DNA of 64,000 nt. It comes from Hyphomicrobiales bacterium. GTDB taxonomy: Bacteria > Pseudomonadota > Alphaproteobacteria > Rhizobiales > JAJFHB01. The notes beneath the pieces are model-generated. The model did no database searches. It was not told the origin of the DNA and saw only the letters and a program-made list of their open reading frames with translations. Below, one piece after another: positions 3,872 to 39,213 of this stretch (position 1 is the first letter of the stretch; each line of letters starts with the position of its first letter). The stretch lies in NCBI GenBank assembly GCA_021775755.1, contig JAJFHE010000039.1, forward strand, positions 62,001 through 126,000, in the 5' to 3' direction. A program made the position numbers and the translations under genes.

Positions 3872-5434
3872 TCACGCCCCCAAAAGCGGCCAGTAGATGG
3901 CGGCCGCTGCAAGCATGATGAGCGTCGAAGCGATTACCATGCGCCAGCCGACCCTGAGGAAATCGCCGGGCGAGAGATAACCAGCGGCAAAGACAATGGT
4001 GCAGGCGGGCGTCCCGACAACCGTCAGATAGGCGAAGGCGGACGACACGGCGGTGATGAAGCCGATGACGATGGGGCTTTCGCCGGCAACGGTTGCCATC
4101 TTGAGCGTGATCGGGCCGAGCACGGCGACGGCCGCGCCGTTGGACATGGTGTTGGTGACAAACGTCGTCAATGCGGAAACCGATACCCACAGGCCGATGC
4201 CGGCATCGGCGCCAAGCGGAGCAAGGATCCCGAGGAACCCCTCCGCGACCCATTCGGCGGCGCCCGTCACTTTCATTTGCACGCCGAGTGAAATCGCCGC
4301 CGCATAGAGAAGGACGACACCCCAGTTGACGCCGTTGTTGACGTCTTCCCATTTGACAAGGCCGGCGACGAGGAACGATGCGGCGCCGAGGACGGCAACG
4401 GTTCCCATGCCGATTTCGGAGGACTCAAAGATCCAGCCGTAAAGGATCAGGAAGAACAGCGTGATGGCGATCCAGTTGGCGGGCGTCATCGGCCCTTCCA
4501 TGCGCATCTGCGCGCGCAGTCGGGCGACCGCTCGCGACAGGTGGCGGTGCTCAGGCTTGAACGTCAACATGATGATGAACGTGACGACCGGCAATTGCAG
4601 TAGGAAGATTGGATAAGAGTAGGCCATCCAGGTCACGTAATCGATGAGGAACTTGTGCGTTTCGGGGTTCGTCGGATCGTAGAAGAACTCTTTCCAGTAA
4701 CCGATCATGATGGCGTTCCGGGCGCCGCCCGACGGCGTGCCGATGCCGGCGACGGAACAGCCGTAGCAGATCGAAAACAAGATCACCGCGGCAAGGTTGC
4801 GCACCTTGGAACGGTCCGTATCGGTCAGCGTGATGAGAGTGATGCCGACGGGCAGCATCATCGCGGCCACGGTGTGCTCGCCAACGAAGGATGCCAGCAG
4901 CCCTGAAACCACGGAAATGCCGAAACAGATCGACGTGGTCCGCGTACCGGTCATGCGCACCAGCAGCCAGGCGATGCGAAGGTCGAGCCGCTGTTTGACG
5001 ACCGCCACCGCGAGCATGAGCGAACCCATGATGAAGAGCACCGAGTCCGTCATCAGGCTTCGGGCAACTTCCGTTGAGCCGATGCCGAGCAGGATCACCT
5101 GTCCGACGATGATGATCAACGCTACCGTGGGCAGCGGGATCGGCTCCGTCACGAACAAGATGGTGGCGACGATCGACATGACAAGAACGGTCCAGCCGGC
5201 CTCGGTAAGGCCCGGCGGTACGGGGGCGTAAAGCAGCAGGGCACCAATCGCCATGGCGATAAAGAACCATCGCTTTTCCCAGAAATAGTAGAAATTGAGC
5301 TGGGCGGAGATGACGAACAGACGATGGCGCCCGTGCCTGCGCAACTGCACCGACCAGCGGCCGGACGGCTCATAAGCCTGCAGGCTGTCCCTGACCAGGC
5401 TGAAGGTCTGCGTTGCCTGACGCGCTGCGTTCAT
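3872..5434 (-). CDS. SLC13/DASS family anion (dicarboxylate or sulfate) transporter
   Basis: A 520-residue polytopic inner-membrane protein. About 60 hydrophilic residues precede the first membrane helix (WFFIAMAIGALLLYAPV). The two halves each show a DASS hairpin: ASFVGEHTVAAMMLPVG in the first and TNTMSNGAAVAVLGP in the second, which keeps the SNT-like substrate/sodium site. The family couples dicarboxylate, citrate or sulfate uptake to sodium. The first hairpin has VGEHT where SNTAT is usual, so ion coupling or substrate may differ. It leads a probable operon with the tandem Usp gene. Confidence 0.88.
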   Translation of the reverse strand: MNAARQATQTFSLVRDSLQAYEPSGRWSVQLRRHGRHRLFVISAQLNFYYFWEKRWFFIAMAIGALLLYAPVPPGLTEAGWTVLVMSIVATILFVTEPIPLPTVALIIIVGQVILLGIGSTEVARSLMTDSVLFIMGSLMLAVAVVKQRLDLRIAWLLVRMTGTRTTSICFGISVVSGLLASFVGEHTVAAMMLPVGITLITLTDTDRSKVRNLAAVILFSICYGCSVAGIGTPSGGARNAIMIGYWKEFFYDPTNPETHKFLIDYVTWMAYSYPIFLLQLPVVTFIIMLTFKPEHRHLSRAVARLRAQMRMEGPMTPANWIAITLFFLILYGWIFESSEIGMGTVAVLGAASFLVAGLVKWEDVNNGVNWGVVLLYAAAISLGVQMKVTGAAEWVAEGFLGILAPLGADAGIGLWVSVSALTTFVTNTMSNGAAVAVLGPITLKMATVAGESPIVIGFITAVSSAFAYLTVVGTPACTIVFAAGYLSPGDFLRVGWRMVIASTLIMLAAAAIYWPLLGA

Positions 5435-34760: not shown

Positions 34761-35720
34761 ATGCTGATCAAGCACCCCAGAGGATGGGATATCCCGGAAA
34801 CACTGACGACACCGGAGCATGTGTTTCTGAACCGTCGGTCGTTTCTGGCAGGTATGACCGGTGCTGTTGGAGCAATCGGCCTGGGGACACTCAGGGCATC
34901 CGCGGAAGAGATCGACCCGACCGCCGACCTCTATCCGGCCAGGCACAACGAAGCGTTCGTCGCCGGCCGCGCAACGACCCCTGAAAAAACCAACTCGATG
35001 TACAACAACTTCTACGAGTTCGGGTCTCACAAACAGATTTACGATGCCGCCCAGGCGTTGCCCATCAGACCTTGGGCGGTGGTTATCGACGGTGAGGTCG
35101 AGCAGGAAATGACCATCGACATCGATGATCTGATCCGCCGCATGACGCTTGAAGAACGAGTTTATCGCCACCGCTGTGTCGAGGCCTGGTCGATGGTTGT
35201 GCCTTGGACTGGGTTTCCGATGCGGAAACTCGTTGACTTGGCCAAACCTCTGACGTCCGCGACCTATGTCCGCATGGAGACATTTCAAAATCCGGAAGTC
35301 GCCCGCGGCCAACGCGCGAACTGGTATCCATGGCCCTATGTCGAGGGCCTTACCCTGGACGAGGCCGTCAATGATCTCACGTTCATGGTGACCGGCGCCT
35401 ACGGCAAATCCATGGCGAAACAGTTCGGCGCGCCGATCAGGTTGCATGCGCCGTGGAAGTACGGTTTCAAATCGGTCAAATCGATTGTCCGCTTCACGTT
35501 TACGCGCGAGCGGCCGGTCAGCTTCTGGGAGGAAATCCAGGCATCCGAATATGGTTTCTGGGCAAACGTCAATCCGGAGGTTTCGCACCCGAGGTGGAGC
35601 CAGGCCAGCGAGCGCGTGCTCGGCACCGATGAGCGCATCCCGACCCAGCTTTACAATGGCTATGGAGAATGGGTTGCCGATCTCTATAAGGGCCTGGAAG
35701 GCGAACGCCTGTTCATGTAG
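34761..35720 (+). CDS. msrP: Periplasmic methionine-sulfoxide reductase, catalytic subunit MsrP
   Basis: A 319-residue molybdoenzyme that repairs oxidised methionines in periplasmic proteins. The twin-arginine signal is NRRSFLAGM (R25/R26). The molybdenum-ligating cysteine is C139 in YRHRCVEAWSMVVPWTG. Further family blocks are NWYPWPYVEGL and MAKQFGAPIRLHAPWKYGFKSVKSI. Length matches YedY/MsrP. The heme partner msrQ, often adjacent, is not in the neighbourhood. GAGGGAG lies before the ATG. Confidence 0.94.
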   Translation: MLIKHPRGWDIPETLTTPEHVFLNRRSFLAGMTGAVGAIGLGTLRASAEEIDPTADLYPARHNEAFVAGRATTPEKTNSMYNNFYEFGSHKQIYDAAQALPIRPWAVVIDGEVEQEMTIDIDDLIRRMTLEERVYRHRCVEAWSMVVPWTGFPMRKLVDLAKPLTSATYVRMETFQNPEVARGQRANWYPWPYVEGLTLDEAVNDLTFMVTGAYGKSMAKQFGAPIRLHAPWKYGFKSVKSIVRFTFTRERPVSFWEEIQASEYGFWANVNPEVSHPRWSQASERVLGTDERIPTQLYNGYGEWVADLYKGLEGERLFM

Positions 35721-35733
35721 CTCACAGGCCGGT

Positions 35734-36891
35734 TTAAACGTCAAAGAACCTAATGTCGTTACGGGTTTGCGGCGGCCAAACGATTGCGTTCGGACGTCGA
35801 GTGCCGGGTGCTTCGCGGGCCGGGCGCCACGCGGCGACATCTTCGTTGTTTGCGCTCAGGTGGCTTGCGACCGCTGCGAGTTCGCTGCCGGTGCATTTTC
35901 TGATCGTGTATCCCTTGAGGCGGTTCGTCAGGTTCTCCAGCGGCCTGCGCGACAGCAGACCCGTTTCCAGCAGCTCCTTGTTGCGCAACCGGCCGCCGTC
36001 CGGCGTCGTGAGTTCGTGCGTCAGGATGAGGCGCTCCATGTCGCCCCAGCCCGCTTGTGCATCGGTGGCGTCGACGAGGCCTAAGGGAACCTGAAAGCCG
36101 CAGGCAAGCGCGGAAGCTCCCGACGGCCCGGCAATCATGAAACGCGCACGAGATGCGGCGAAGGCCTGCAGCATGAAACTGTTGGGAAGCCGGCTCAGGT
36201 CGACAACGCCGCGGCGTTGGGGAAGAGGGTGCATCTCGGGATGTCCAAGCCGTACGACCTGTCCGCCAAGTTCGTCGATGATGTGATCGGCGAGCGTGTT
36301 GAACGCCTCCGGGTCGCTGTCGCGAATGCCACCGAGATTGGCGCGCCAGCGATAGTTGCTGTCGCGGTAATGAATCGCGGCGAACCAACGATTTCGTTCC
36401 AGTCCGAGCTCGATGAGGCGGTGCGCCAGCCGGTGTTCAAGCTCAGGCGGCACGCGCAGGGGAACAATGTCGGGGAGCCCGTGAACGCTGCGGGCGTCGG
36501 CCATCCAGTCATTGATGACGAAATCGTAGAAGTGCCGTTTTGATCCTTTGCGGGCGTCAACGAATAACGGTCGCCAGAAGCGGTCGCGCTTGAAGCACGA
36601 GCGGAGCCAGGCGGGCATTTCGCCCTTGATCACCCTGACTTTGTCGATGTTGGGCGCGAGCGACATCACTTTGCGGCTGTAAGGCCGGACATCGCGAAAA
36701 TAGACATGCAGTTTGGCGTGGTCGAACTGGTTCTTTACGGTCGCGTAGAACACGACCTTTGAGATGAGATCGCCAAGCGTCGTTTCGAGGGTCTGGGCAA
36801 GGATCGAGAACGGACGCTCCGGGACGCGGCCAATGTCGCGATAGAGAAGATCGGAACTGACCTGTCCCCGCGTGAACGGCTTCGCGCTCAT
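35734..36891 (-). CDS. TIGR04372-type glycosyltransferase
   Basis: A 385-residue protein matching the TIGR04372 glycosyltransferase pattern. It has WFAAIHYRDSNYRWR, then ADHIIDELGGQVVRLGHPEMHPLP, VDLSRLPNSFMLQAFAASRARFMIAGPSGASAL near the nucleotide-sugar site, and a basic, less conserved C-terminus. Members sit in O-antigen or surface-polysaccharide loci, but no such locus is visible here, so the acceptor is unknown. The ATG at 36891 has GGAAACAGG upstream; a TTG four codons earlier is less likely. Confidence 0.78.
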   Translation of the reverse strand: MSAKPFTRGQVSSDLLYRDIGRVPERPFSILAQTLETTLGDLISKVVFYATVKNQFDHAKLHVYFRDVRPYSRKVMSLAPNIDKVRVIKGEMPAWLRSCFKRDRFWRPLFVDARKGSKRHFYDFVINDWMADARSVHGLPDIVPLRVPPELEHRLAHRLIELGLERNRWFAAIHYRDSNYRWRANLGGIRDSDPEAFNTLADHIIDELGGQVVRLGHPEMHPLPQRRGVVDLSRLPNSFMLQAFAASRARFMIAGPSGASALACGFQVPLGLVDATDAQAGWGDMERLILTHELTTPDGGRLRNKELLETGLLSRRPLENLTNRLKGYTIRKCTGSELAAVASHLSANNEDVAAWRPAREAPGTRRPNAIVWPPQTRNDIRFFDV

Positions 36892-37031
36892 GCCTGTTTC
36901 CAAAGTTACGAATCAGTGTTTCTGGTTGCGGGAACGTTAGTCGCGTCGTCGTGCCAAACCATTGATGCAGATCAACAATCTGGTGTGATCGTGCTAAGGG
37001 GATACGCACCGGCGCAGCCCGTCGCGCGGAC

Positions 37032-37178
37032 AAAAAAGAGCCGGACCTAGGGGGGAGAAAGGCCCGGCTCAAAATTTTGCGTCCCGCTAAGGACAAACGG
37101 AGGGCCAATCCAGGGGTGAGGGTCGGATTGGCCATACAGCGGGCGTTGCAAGGGGAGGGAGTAACCGCCCGCTGTGAA
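37032..37178 (-). ncRNA. Candidate small RNA: three hairpins with C-rich loops and a U6 terminator
   Basis: Read on the minus strand there are three stems. Stem I is a perfect 10 bp (ACAGCGGGCG at 37166-37175 with 37136-37145), loop containing CTCCCTCCCC. Stem II is a perfect 9 bp (GGCCAATCC at 37125-37133 with 37103-37111), loop GACCCTCACCCCT. Stem III is 7 bp (GAGCCGG at 37064-37070 with 37038-37044), loop containing CTCCCCCC, followed by six T: an intrinsic terminator. Three hairpins with unpaired anti-Shine-Dalgarno C-rich loops is the layout of alphaproteobacterial small RNAs such as the NfeR1/alpha-r14 type. A 7-bp repeat TGAACGT/ACGTTCA (37175-37181, 37197-37203) lies at the 5' side. 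Promoter not identified. Confidence 0.72.
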
Positions 37179-37299
37179 CGTTGCTCTGTAAAGATCACGT
37201 TCAGACAATATTTGGGGATTGTCGGAGATTCAGCAAGGTGGGCTGGCACATAGGAGATATGCGTCTGACGCATAGCTCATGCTGACAAGTTTTCGCGCT

Positions 37300-38187
37300 T
37301 CAGAAAGACCACTCTTTCGCTTTTGCGACGACAAAGTCCCTGAAAATGGCGACGCGCTTGGAATTTCGCAGTTCTTCGGGATAAACGAGATAGGTATCGA
37401 AGTGCGGCATTTCCTCATCGCGCATGAGCTGAACGAGTGCTCGCCTGTCACCGACGACGTAGTCTGGAAGAGCCGCAATTCCCAGTCCCATCTGAGCGGC
37501 CCGGGCGAGGCCAGTGACGTTGTTGATCTTCAGCACCGACTGGCGCGGCGTGCCGTCTTCGCGTCCGATCGTCTCGAGCACATTGATTGTGTGGAGATAG
37601 GGCGGTGGCGTTCCAAAAGAGAGAATGCTGTGGTTGTCGAGGTCGCTGATCGACTGCGGCACACCGTTACGCTTCAGGTAATCCGTCGAGGCGTAGATGT
37701 GGTAGTGCACGGTAAACAGGCGGCGTTGAATGAGATCGGGTTGCGTCGGCTGGCGCAGCCTGATCGCCACGTCCGCCTCGCGCATGGAAAGATCGAGCTC
37801 TCTGTCGGCCAGCAGTATCTGCGTGTTGATGTCGGGATAGAGCTCGATGAACTCCGAGATGCGCGGTGTCAGCCAACTGGTTCCAAGGCCGATTGTCGTG
37901 GTGATCTTCAGATCGCCTGACGGCTTTTCCCGCGAATCCATGAGCCGGGTTTGCGCGGTGGCAAGCCGGGTGAAGACATCGTGGGCGGTGCGGTAAAGCA
38001 TCTCGCCTTGTTCGGTCAGAATAAGCCCGCGCGCATGACGGTGAAACAGCGGCACCTTGAGGTCAGCCTCAAGGGCACTAATCTGCCGACTCACCGCGGA
38101 CTGGCTGAGCGCCAGTTCTTCGCCGGCATGCGTAAAACTGCCAGCGTCAGCCACCGCGTGGAAAATGCGAAGCTTGTCCCAATCCAT
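37300..38187 (-). CDS. LysR family transcriptional regulator
   Basis: A 295-residue regulator. The N-terminal winged helix is WDKLRIFHAVADAGSFTHAGEELALSQSAVSRQISALEADLKVPLFHRHARGLILTEQG in family order, followed by the effector domain from about residue 93. It follows trxB on the same strand by 63 bp, a linkage seen in related bacteria, and may be co-transcribed with it. The effector and targets are unknown. The C-rich-loop RNA lies about 120 bp downstream. Confidence 0.92.
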   Translation of the reverse strand: MDWDKLRIFHAVADAGSFTHAGEELALSQSAVSRQISALEADLKVPLFHRHARGLILTEQGEMLYRTAHDVFTRLATAQTRLMDSREKPSGDLKITTTIGLGTSWLTPRISEFIELYPDINTQILLADRELDLSMREADVAIRLRQPTQPDLIQRRLFTVHYHIYASTDYLKRNGVPQSISDLDNHSILSFGTPPPYLHTINVLETIGREDGTPRQSVLKINNVTGLARAAQMGLGIAALPDYVVGDRRALVQLMRDEEMPHFDTYLVYPEELRNSKRVAIFRDFVVAKAKEWSF

Positions 38188-38250: not shown

Positions 38251-39213
38251 TTACTCCGCAGCTTCGCTGTGCGTTTCAAGCGCGGCGAGATACTTCTCCG
38301 CCTCCAGGGCGGCCATGCAGCCCATGCCGGCTGCGGTTACCGCCTGGCGGTAAATGTCGTCCGTCACGTCGCCGGCGGCGTATACGCCGGGCTTTGCCGT
38401 GGCGGTGGAATCGGGAGCGGTTACAATGTAGCTGCCGTGTTGCATCTTAAGCTGCCCCATAAACAATTCGGTCGCTGGAGAATGTCCGATGGCAACAAAC
38501 ACGCCGTCGGCGGAGATCACCTGCGTCGCGTCGGATTTTACATTTCGCGCCTTGATACCGGTGACGCCCGGCGGGTTGTCGTCGCCGAGAATTTCCTCAA
38601 CCACCGTATCCCAGACGGGCGTGATCTTTTCATGGGCGAACAGGCGATTCTGCAGGATTTTCTCCGCCCGCAATTCGTCGCGGCGATGCACGAGTATGAC
38701 TTCCGACGCGAAGTTGGTGAGGAACAGTGCTTCTTCGACAGCCGTGTTGCCGCCGCCGACCACGATGACCTTCTTGCCGCGGTAAAAAAAACCGTCGCAG
38801 GTCGCACAGGCCGAGACACCGAAACCTTTCAACTTCTCTTCGCTCTCCAGGCCGAGCCAGCGCGCCTGGGCGCCGGTGCAGACGATGAGCACGTCGCAGG
38901 TATATTCATTGCCGCTGTCGCCGGTGAGCCGATAGGGCCTTTGTCCGAGATCGACTGAGACGATGTGATCCGACACCAGCTCGGTGCCGACCTTTTCGGC
39001 CTGCTCGCGCATCTGTTCCATGAGCCAGGGGCCCTGAATGAGATCGGCAAAGCCCGGATAGTTTTCCACTTCCGTGGTGATCGTCAGCTGTCCGCCGGGT
39101 TGAATACCCTGAATGAGCACGGGCTCAAGCATCGCGCGCGCGGCATATATTGCCGCCGTGTATCCGGCGGGTCCGGAACCCAGGATGAGAACTTTTATAT
39201 GTCGTGTGGTCAT
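38251..39213 (-). CDS. trxB: Thioredoxin reductase TrxB
   Basis: A 320-residue flavoprotein that reduces thioredoxin with NADPH. The FAD site is [20 protein letters not shown], the redox pair is CATC in [12 protein letters not shown], the NADPH site is [17 protein letters not shown] followed by [10 protein letters not shown], and the C-terminal FAD contact is [34 protein letters not shown]. Length and all motifs are normal. It heads a probable unit with the LysR gene. Confidence 0.97.

Follow-up and report, generated by a model that had tools for sequence, protein, structure and literature searches.

What lies in the gap behind the LysR-type regulator gene of this Hyphomicrobiales bacterium, and to which of the known alphaproteobacterial RNAs does it stand closest? 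The question arose from the window, that is, the whole stretch of 64,000 nt analysed here, for which the initial annotation had proposed a small RNA with tandem hairpins and anti-Shine-Dalgarno (aSD) type loops on the minus strand, a proposal that comparison with other genomes supports. In the published accounts, the aSD motifs of AbcR and NfeR1 were shown to act in the silencing of mRNAs, including those of transporters (PMC8844928, PMC10746234); in related S. meliloti RNAs the stems diverge and the loops stay (PMC3927594), and most such RNA families are described as confined to Rhizobiaceae (PMC7143759). Our literature search, which was incomplete, returned nothing recognisable as this RNA or as lsrB-linked aSD RNAs of this build.

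The hairpin array

The gap had been given as 408 bp between a glycosyltransferase and a LysR gene. The length holds if the downstream gene starts at ATG 36891, and the LysR label is borne out by PF00126 and PF03466; the glycosyltransferase label is not, as that frame has no Pfam match at 1e-5. Reading along the minus strand, the order of elements is box, -35/-10, 5′ hairpin (SL0), SL1, SL2, the small hairpin SL3, SL4 and six T (Table 1). The three consecutive perfect stems of 10, 9 and 7 bp first described are recovered as SL1, SL2 and the outer seven pairs of SL4, whose full stem (37038-37070) has 11 pairs, one of them G-U. Their C-rich loops were also quoted correctly (CTCCCTCCCC, CCCTCACCCC and CTCCCCCC for SL1, SL2 and SL4), as was the run of six T after the last stem (37032-37037), and the additional 7-bp repeat reported at the 5′ side is probably SL0 (37176-37202).

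Table 1. Features of the locus, in window coordinates.
Feature	Position	Strand	Basis and remarks
msrP-like molybdopterin oxidoreductase, convergent	34761-35720	+	PF00174; relatives often have it downstream of lsrB and RNA
389-codon frame between RNA and msrP	35734-36903	-	no Pfam match at 1e-5
Predicted small RNA, ~170 nt	37032-37201	-	promoter/terminator geometry, covariation, R1 match
SL4, terminator-like, U6 tail 37032-37037; loop with CUCCCCCC at 37050-37057	37032-37070	-	fold, covariation
SL3, short hairpin GUCC UUAGCG GGAC	37081-37094	-	fold, covariation
SL2, 9 perfect pairs, 10 with G-U; loop with aSD2 CCCUCACCCC at 37113-37122	37103-37133	-	fold, covariation
SL1, 10 perfect pairs; loop with aSD1 ACUCCCUCCCC at 37152-37162	37136-37175	-	fold, covariation
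SL0, 5′ hairpin GAACGU...ACGUUC	37176-37202	-	fold
Predicted promoter: -35 CTTGCT 37232-37237, 18-nt spacer, -10 AAATAT 37208-37213	37208-37237	-	
LysR-type (LsrB/VtlR-like) box TATGCG-N5-CGCAT-ATCTCCTATG, T-N11-A core	37249-37274	-	sequence pattern; predicted site
lsrB/vtlR orthologue, LysR family, no cysteine	37300-38187	-	PF00126 and PF03466, relatives, published context
trxB-like reductase, upstream of lsrB	38251-39213	-	PF07992; name from the published Agrobacterium order (PMC7486931)

The claim that three such stems are unlikely by chance was confirmed. The gap has three hairpins with a C-rich loop and a stem of at least 7 pairs; among 1000 shuffled versions, 867 had none, 122 had one and 11 had two, and not a single one reached three. 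Both strands of the 64 kb together hold 32 C-rich-loop hairpins (23 + 9), and only at this gap do three lie within 200 nt. The sole other pair within 200 nt in the window is found at ~50953 on the minus strand. Moreover, the folding z-score is -6.2 for 37032-37203 and -5.2 for 37032-37201, with 0/200 shuffles as stable in either case. A simple terminator scan did not list SL4, since it is limited to loops of 3-8 nt and that of SL4 has 11 nt. A 238-codon frame (36557-37273) that overlaps the hairpins was considered as coding and set aside, the gaps between relatives not coming in threes.

Conservation of the structure

Searching with the LysR gene recovered 110 lsrB loci, and in many of these relatives C-rich-loop hairpins with differing stems are found directly behind lsrB. 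A covariance model, R1, was built from 11 genomes, namely the window, the nine next nearest by lsrB (L036-L044) and the msrP-side copy of G039. The consensus fold of alignment A1 recovered only 11 terminator pairs and 3 SL3 pairs, and therefore the structure of R1 was set by hand from the fold of the window. R1 matches 37032-37178 with 119.6 bits, the window sequence itself being part of the model.

A check for compensatory changes in relatives had been set beforehand, and changes on both sides of the stems proved abundant: across 21 aligned matches, 31/32 pairs have at least one sequence in which both partners are changed. In this alignment 83.3% of cells are paired vs 63.8% in shuffles, and the covariation score is 0.481 vs 0.192 in shuffles (sd 0.014; 0/500 as high) and 0.04-0.15 for slid structures; these values come from a 21-row alignment (A3) that was fitted to the structure and leans to it because it was aligned with the model, and 11/21 of its rows also built R1. 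The proportion of cells paired in relatives is 94% for SL4 and 63% for SL3, the weakest helix. When arms are cross-paired between genomes, pairing is retained in 272/660 cells for SL1 (10 genomes, without G002, whose SL1 is irregular) and 343/736 for SL2 (11 genomes); arms of the same genome pair in 80/80 and 83/84 cells, respectively, figures that are high because the arms were chosen to pair.

The loops of SL1 and SL2 hardly vary among the model genomes. The C-rich signature said to be shared by three loops is present in the window but is not general for the third, as the SL4 loop is C-rich in part of the model genomes only and the terminator loop of the f5 relatives is not C-rich. Taken together, these comparisons indicate that the locus is very probably a genuine small RNA gene, with stems that persist through changes in their letters.

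The place downstream of lsrB

The LysR gene at 37300-38187 is the LsrB/VtlR orthologue, and the RNA lies ~100 nt past its stop on the same strand. Published gene orders are trxB-vtlR-abcR1-abcR2 in Agrobacterium (PMC7486931) and, in S. meliloti, AbcR1/2 between lsrB and SMc01226 (PMC8844928). With its LsrB/VtlR orthologue beside a trxB-like gene, the window therefore has the RNA in the place of the Sinorhizobium/Agrobacterium AbcR1/2.

This place recurs among relatives. R1 was searched against the window and 68/144 loci picked by hand, a selection from which many rhizobial loci were left out. Among 58 non-model sources, 29/32 matches (E<0.01) are on the lsrB strand, 0-700 nt behind the gene, a target that comprises 6.1% of the strand-bases searched; the 29 matches fall in 27/58 sources, and 31/58 have no R1 match after lsrB at this threshold. 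The other three matches lie beside msrP (L066 and L068) or on the opposite strand (L081). At the level of whole genomes, an R1 match (E<=0.001) was found in 23/101, our own included, and none in 78/101. The match lies just after lsrB in 19/23 and, for genomes outside the model, in 9/12, coordinates having been compared; the four genomes with R1 but without a match just after lsrB are G004, G052, G091 and G039, the last having its copy beside msrP. The genome of the window carries a single R1 copy (E 3.6e-24; next E 8.3). A class-wide R1 search (E<=1e-4, strict filters, few candidates scored) matched our own genome and none of 288 others. In Sinorhizobium L110, a holder of true AbcRs, R1 was without a match even at E<=1, and a plain DNA search of 61 genomes returned 3 matches besides our own, that in G039 via the box region only.

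The convergent oxidoreductase gene at 34761-35720 (PF00174), whose product we take to be MsrP, has relatives in 46/110 lsrB loci, and in 45 these are downstream and convergent (counts include duplicates on one contig; many loci are too short to show msrP). Examples of this arrangement are L046, L056 and L126. In L002, L066 and L068 the RNA is absent beside lsrB and adjoins msrP.

Comparison with known RNA families

At the gathering threshold, Rfam gave 0 matches in the window. RF02345, the model that matches behind lsrB of L110 with 111.6 and 100.6 bits, has a cut-off of 40 bits and yielded no match at E<=10 in 36900-37310 and none in our own genome at E<=0.01 with strict filters. In Brucella endophytica (L104), R1 (32.7 bits) and RF02345 (63.9 bits, cut-off 40) share the interval 4258-4373, and they also coincide in G063 and G085, where RF02345 is below its cut-off (37.5 and 32.5 bits).

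Like AbcR1/2, the RNA lies downstream of trxB-lsrB/vtlR on the same strand and ends in a terminator-like hairpin; a predicted LysR-type box and sigma-70-like promoter stand in front of it. Its first hairpin loop has an aSD1-like motif, and another aSD-type motif follows downstream. The aSD motifs of AbcR are CUCCUCCC in the 5′ hairpin loop and UUCCCCUC between stem-loops (for AbcR biology see PMC8844928 and PMC7486931). Hfq binding and the silencing of ABC transporter mRNAs are further marks of this family. In the window, an aSD1-like CUCCCUCCCC is found in the SL1 loop and CCCUCACCCC in SL2, and the f5 relatives have UUCCCCUC, but in a hairpin loop. Unlike AbcR1/2, the RNA has no RF02345 match, the loop with its second motif belongs to a hairpin of its own, there is an extra short hairpin, and it is longer and single (~170 nt as predicted, one copy, as against 114-121 nt and two in tandem in S. 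meliloti).

The AbcR aSD2 core GTTCCCCTC occurs in 43/101 lsrB-downstream stretches, with 0 on the opposite strand and 0.45 in shuffles; with C[CT]CC[CT]CCC, a looser pattern, specificity drops (46/101, opposite strand 4, shuffles 8.75). The window does not contain the exact 9-mer GTTCCCCTC, its SL2 loop being CCCTCACCCC, and three f5 genomes have it in the SL2 loop. In a tree of 101 LsrB proteins with midpoint root, a fork with support 82/89 places the window on one side; the rhizobia and all 40 rows labelled with the 9-mer fall on the other. Rows carrying both R1 and 9-mer labels were counted as R1 type, so that f5 genomes carry the 9-mer on the side of the window too. The R1 type is clustered in this tree (0/500 shuffles as low), yet it is not one clade (5 changes).

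The order at lsrB, the overlap of R1 with RF02345 and the aSD2 core seen behind lsrB in relatives lead us to regard the RNA as this lineage's AbcR, that is, as a positional orthologue in another lineage of the Hyphomicrobiales with both motifs in hairpin loops. The second aSD motif in a hairpin loop of its own gives it an NfeR1-like outline. The RNA is filed in neither RF02345 nor RF02344, both score tests having failed.

That outline raises the alternative of a divergent ar14 (NfeR1-type) RNA copy having taken over the AbcR place at the lsrB locus, which we judge unlikely. RF02344 is the best Rfam match (E 1.7e-5 in a 411-nt search; in the whole genome E 5.5e-5 and the only match at E<=10), the RNA shares with NfeR1/alpha-r14 several tandem hairpins, C-rich aSD loops and freely changing stems, and NfeR1 is also reported to be activated by LsrB (PMC10746234). 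However, the score is 37.1 bits against a cut-off of 58.8, so that the logic of NfeR1/alpha-r14 seen by the initial annotation survives as a likeness and falls short of the family model. NfeR1 is described with an identical CCUCCUCCC in all three loops (PMC10746234), whereas the loops of the window differ from one another and none of the three (CUCCCUCCCC, CCCUCACCCC, CUCCCCCC) contains it; the genomic place also differs. Moreover, the related RNAs sit in the AbcR place, f5 members carry the GUUCCCCUC of AbcR in SL2, and R1 and RF02345 coincide at the same intervals in three genomes, all of which favours the positional orthologue of AbcR.

CcsR/cuckoo RNAs have C-rich loops of the aSD type, as does the RNA of the window. 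RNAs of that kind are often linked to DUF1127 genes (PMC10253847); here the flanks are lsrB and a frame without Pfam match (1e-5), with no DUF1127 association, and the kinship with Ccs/cuckoo RNAs first suggested is not upheld. In a Sneathiella locus (L120), three CTCCC-loop units lie at 4063-4629, ~175-740 nt after lsrB, and score 45.5, 43.1 and 35.4 bits with SorX RF02784 (cut-off 46.6); L126 has hairpins similar to these units. They resemble the RNA of the window in their place downstream of lsrB, their CUCCC loops and their repeated copies, and differ from it in having other hairpins, R1 reaching only E 0.034 (L126: 0.14). This hints that SorX-like RNAs also reside at lsrB. The L047 match to a plant microRNA family was attributed to chance, as were others that scored far below cut-off.

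A predicted LysR-type box and promoter

The predicted box fits 6/7 specified positions of the LsrB/VtlR consensus GCAT-N3-TG-N3-T (PMC8844928 section 5; PMC7486931), with TC in place of the consensus TG. It scores 12 or 13 of 13 in 22/101 non-redundant lsrB-downstream stretches, the window included, against 0.1 of 101 in shuffles; the counts for the box and for the aSD2 core used 101/110 lsrB stretches (5 duplicates and 4 too short were left out). In the genome of the window, the box pattern, which was written to fit the site in question, has 1 match without mismatch (this site) and 4 more with 3 mismatches, and the reversed-pattern control has 2.

The predicted transcription start is at ~37201. 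In 10/10 genomes examined, the window included, CTTG stands at a constant distance from the box and is followed after 18 nt, a spacing picked by inspection, by a hexamer with A at position 2 and T at position 6; G039, the eleventh model genome, is without CTTG at the promoter position. A pattern scan for sigma-70 promoters gave none at the RNA locus. In sequence, an LsrB/VtlR box appears to precede an AbcR1-type promoter position here. Tandem RNA copies (two or more) follow lsrB in L051, L052, L055 and L062; boxes of their own precede the copies in three of these loci, numbering two in L051, two in L052 and three in L055.

These elements bear on whether the hairpins are simply the 3′ UTR of lsrB, the RNA being cut from a trxB-lsrB mRNA or merely forming its end. 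The location on the same strand ~100 nt past the lsrB stop, the terminator-like end and the pattern scan without a promoter would all suit such an origin. Nevertheless, we regard it as quite improbable: box and -35/-10 keep a fixed spacing in 10/11 genomes, the hairpins exceed what a terminator needs and their loops are near-constant, and the RNA is ~2.5 kb from lsrB in L066 and L068 and on another contig than lsrB in G039. Processing of a 3′ UTR and an own promoter may coexist. That the hairpins act in cis on the downstream frame, as its leader or attenuator, is very hard to credit, for although they lie upstream of it on the same strand, the frame has relatives only in the window's own loci among the loci compared, yet the RNA is conserved, and a terminator-like hairpin stands between the two.

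Proposed action, targets and activating signal

Our best explanation, in which we have good though not complete confidence, is a trans-acting RNA of ~170 nt, activated by LsrB/VtlR and the positional orthologue of AbcR1, the loops of which block ribosome sites. The neighbouring LsrB/VtlR-type regulator would switch on its transcription, and C/U-rich aSD sequences would be displayed in stable hairpin loops, at least two in number and three in the window. By analogy, these loops would pair with GGGAG-type ribosome sites and translation would be blocked, the targets most likely being transporter mRNAs. Comparison between genomes shows an RNA gene with kept stems, its place after trxB-lsrB and the spacing of box and promoter.

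With regard to targets, the SL1 loop pairs more strongly in our own genome with 23 leaders of periplasmic binding proteins than with 30 dehydrogenase leaders (mean -15.0 vs -13.0 kcal/mol, p = 0.04 uncorrected). Pairing of the terminator loop is also stronger for the binding-protein leaders (p = 0.0075), and for SL2 there is no difference (p = 0.35). However, the Shine-Dalgarno sites themselves are stronger in the binding-protein leaders than in the dehydrogenase controls (p = 0.017), and therefore the pairing is consistent with transporter targets and no proof of them. Start codons were set by rule. Of 24 binding-protein loci one, L166 with its 2901-codon frame, was excluded; the dehydrogenase controls are the 30 best among 65 matches; and 0/54 reading frames were broken.

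As for the activating signal, Agrobacterium LsrB is reported to sense oxidants via cysteines (PMC11975290). The Sinorhizobium LsrB rows (L110 and L112) have three cysteines that fit the published sensor positions with a numbering shift of four. The LsrB of the window has no cysteine, and the same is true of 58/110 aligned orthologues (window and duplicates counted). The published thiol switch therefore cannot be its signal, and activation must rest on another. We infer that the link between LsrB and the RNA may be older than the thiol switch.

Conclusions

Beyond what the initial annotation contained, the analysis adds SL3, the place after trxB-lsrB that is held by AbcR1/2, a predicted LysR-type box with its promoter, msrP as a neighbour, and RNAs at the same place in many genomes of the order. 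On our reading, the LsrB-AbcR pair, known from Sinorhizobium, Agrobacterium and Brucella, is extended to other lineages of the order by an RNA whose design lies between two known aSD RNA families. A simple locus rule follows, namely to search downstream of lsrB or beside msrP, and this finds RNAs where Rfam models fall short. Moreover, with an LsrB that has no cysteine, the activator of the RNA can here be studied apart from the thiol-switch model.

Given an RNA of another build at the AbcR place, the AbcR family may have a longer history and more diverse forms than current descriptions suggest. More tentatively, and at somewhat less than even chances in our estimate, lsrB and its own downstream anti-ribosome-site RNA would be an ancient unit in the order that predates redox sensing by cysteines, with alpha-r14 and alpha-r15 as outcomes of one family that is stable only in its loops, promoter and place. 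Under such a one-family reading, stems would turn over freely and a motif could shift from single strand to hairpin loop or back, and families defined by sequence would therefore split what is one gene.
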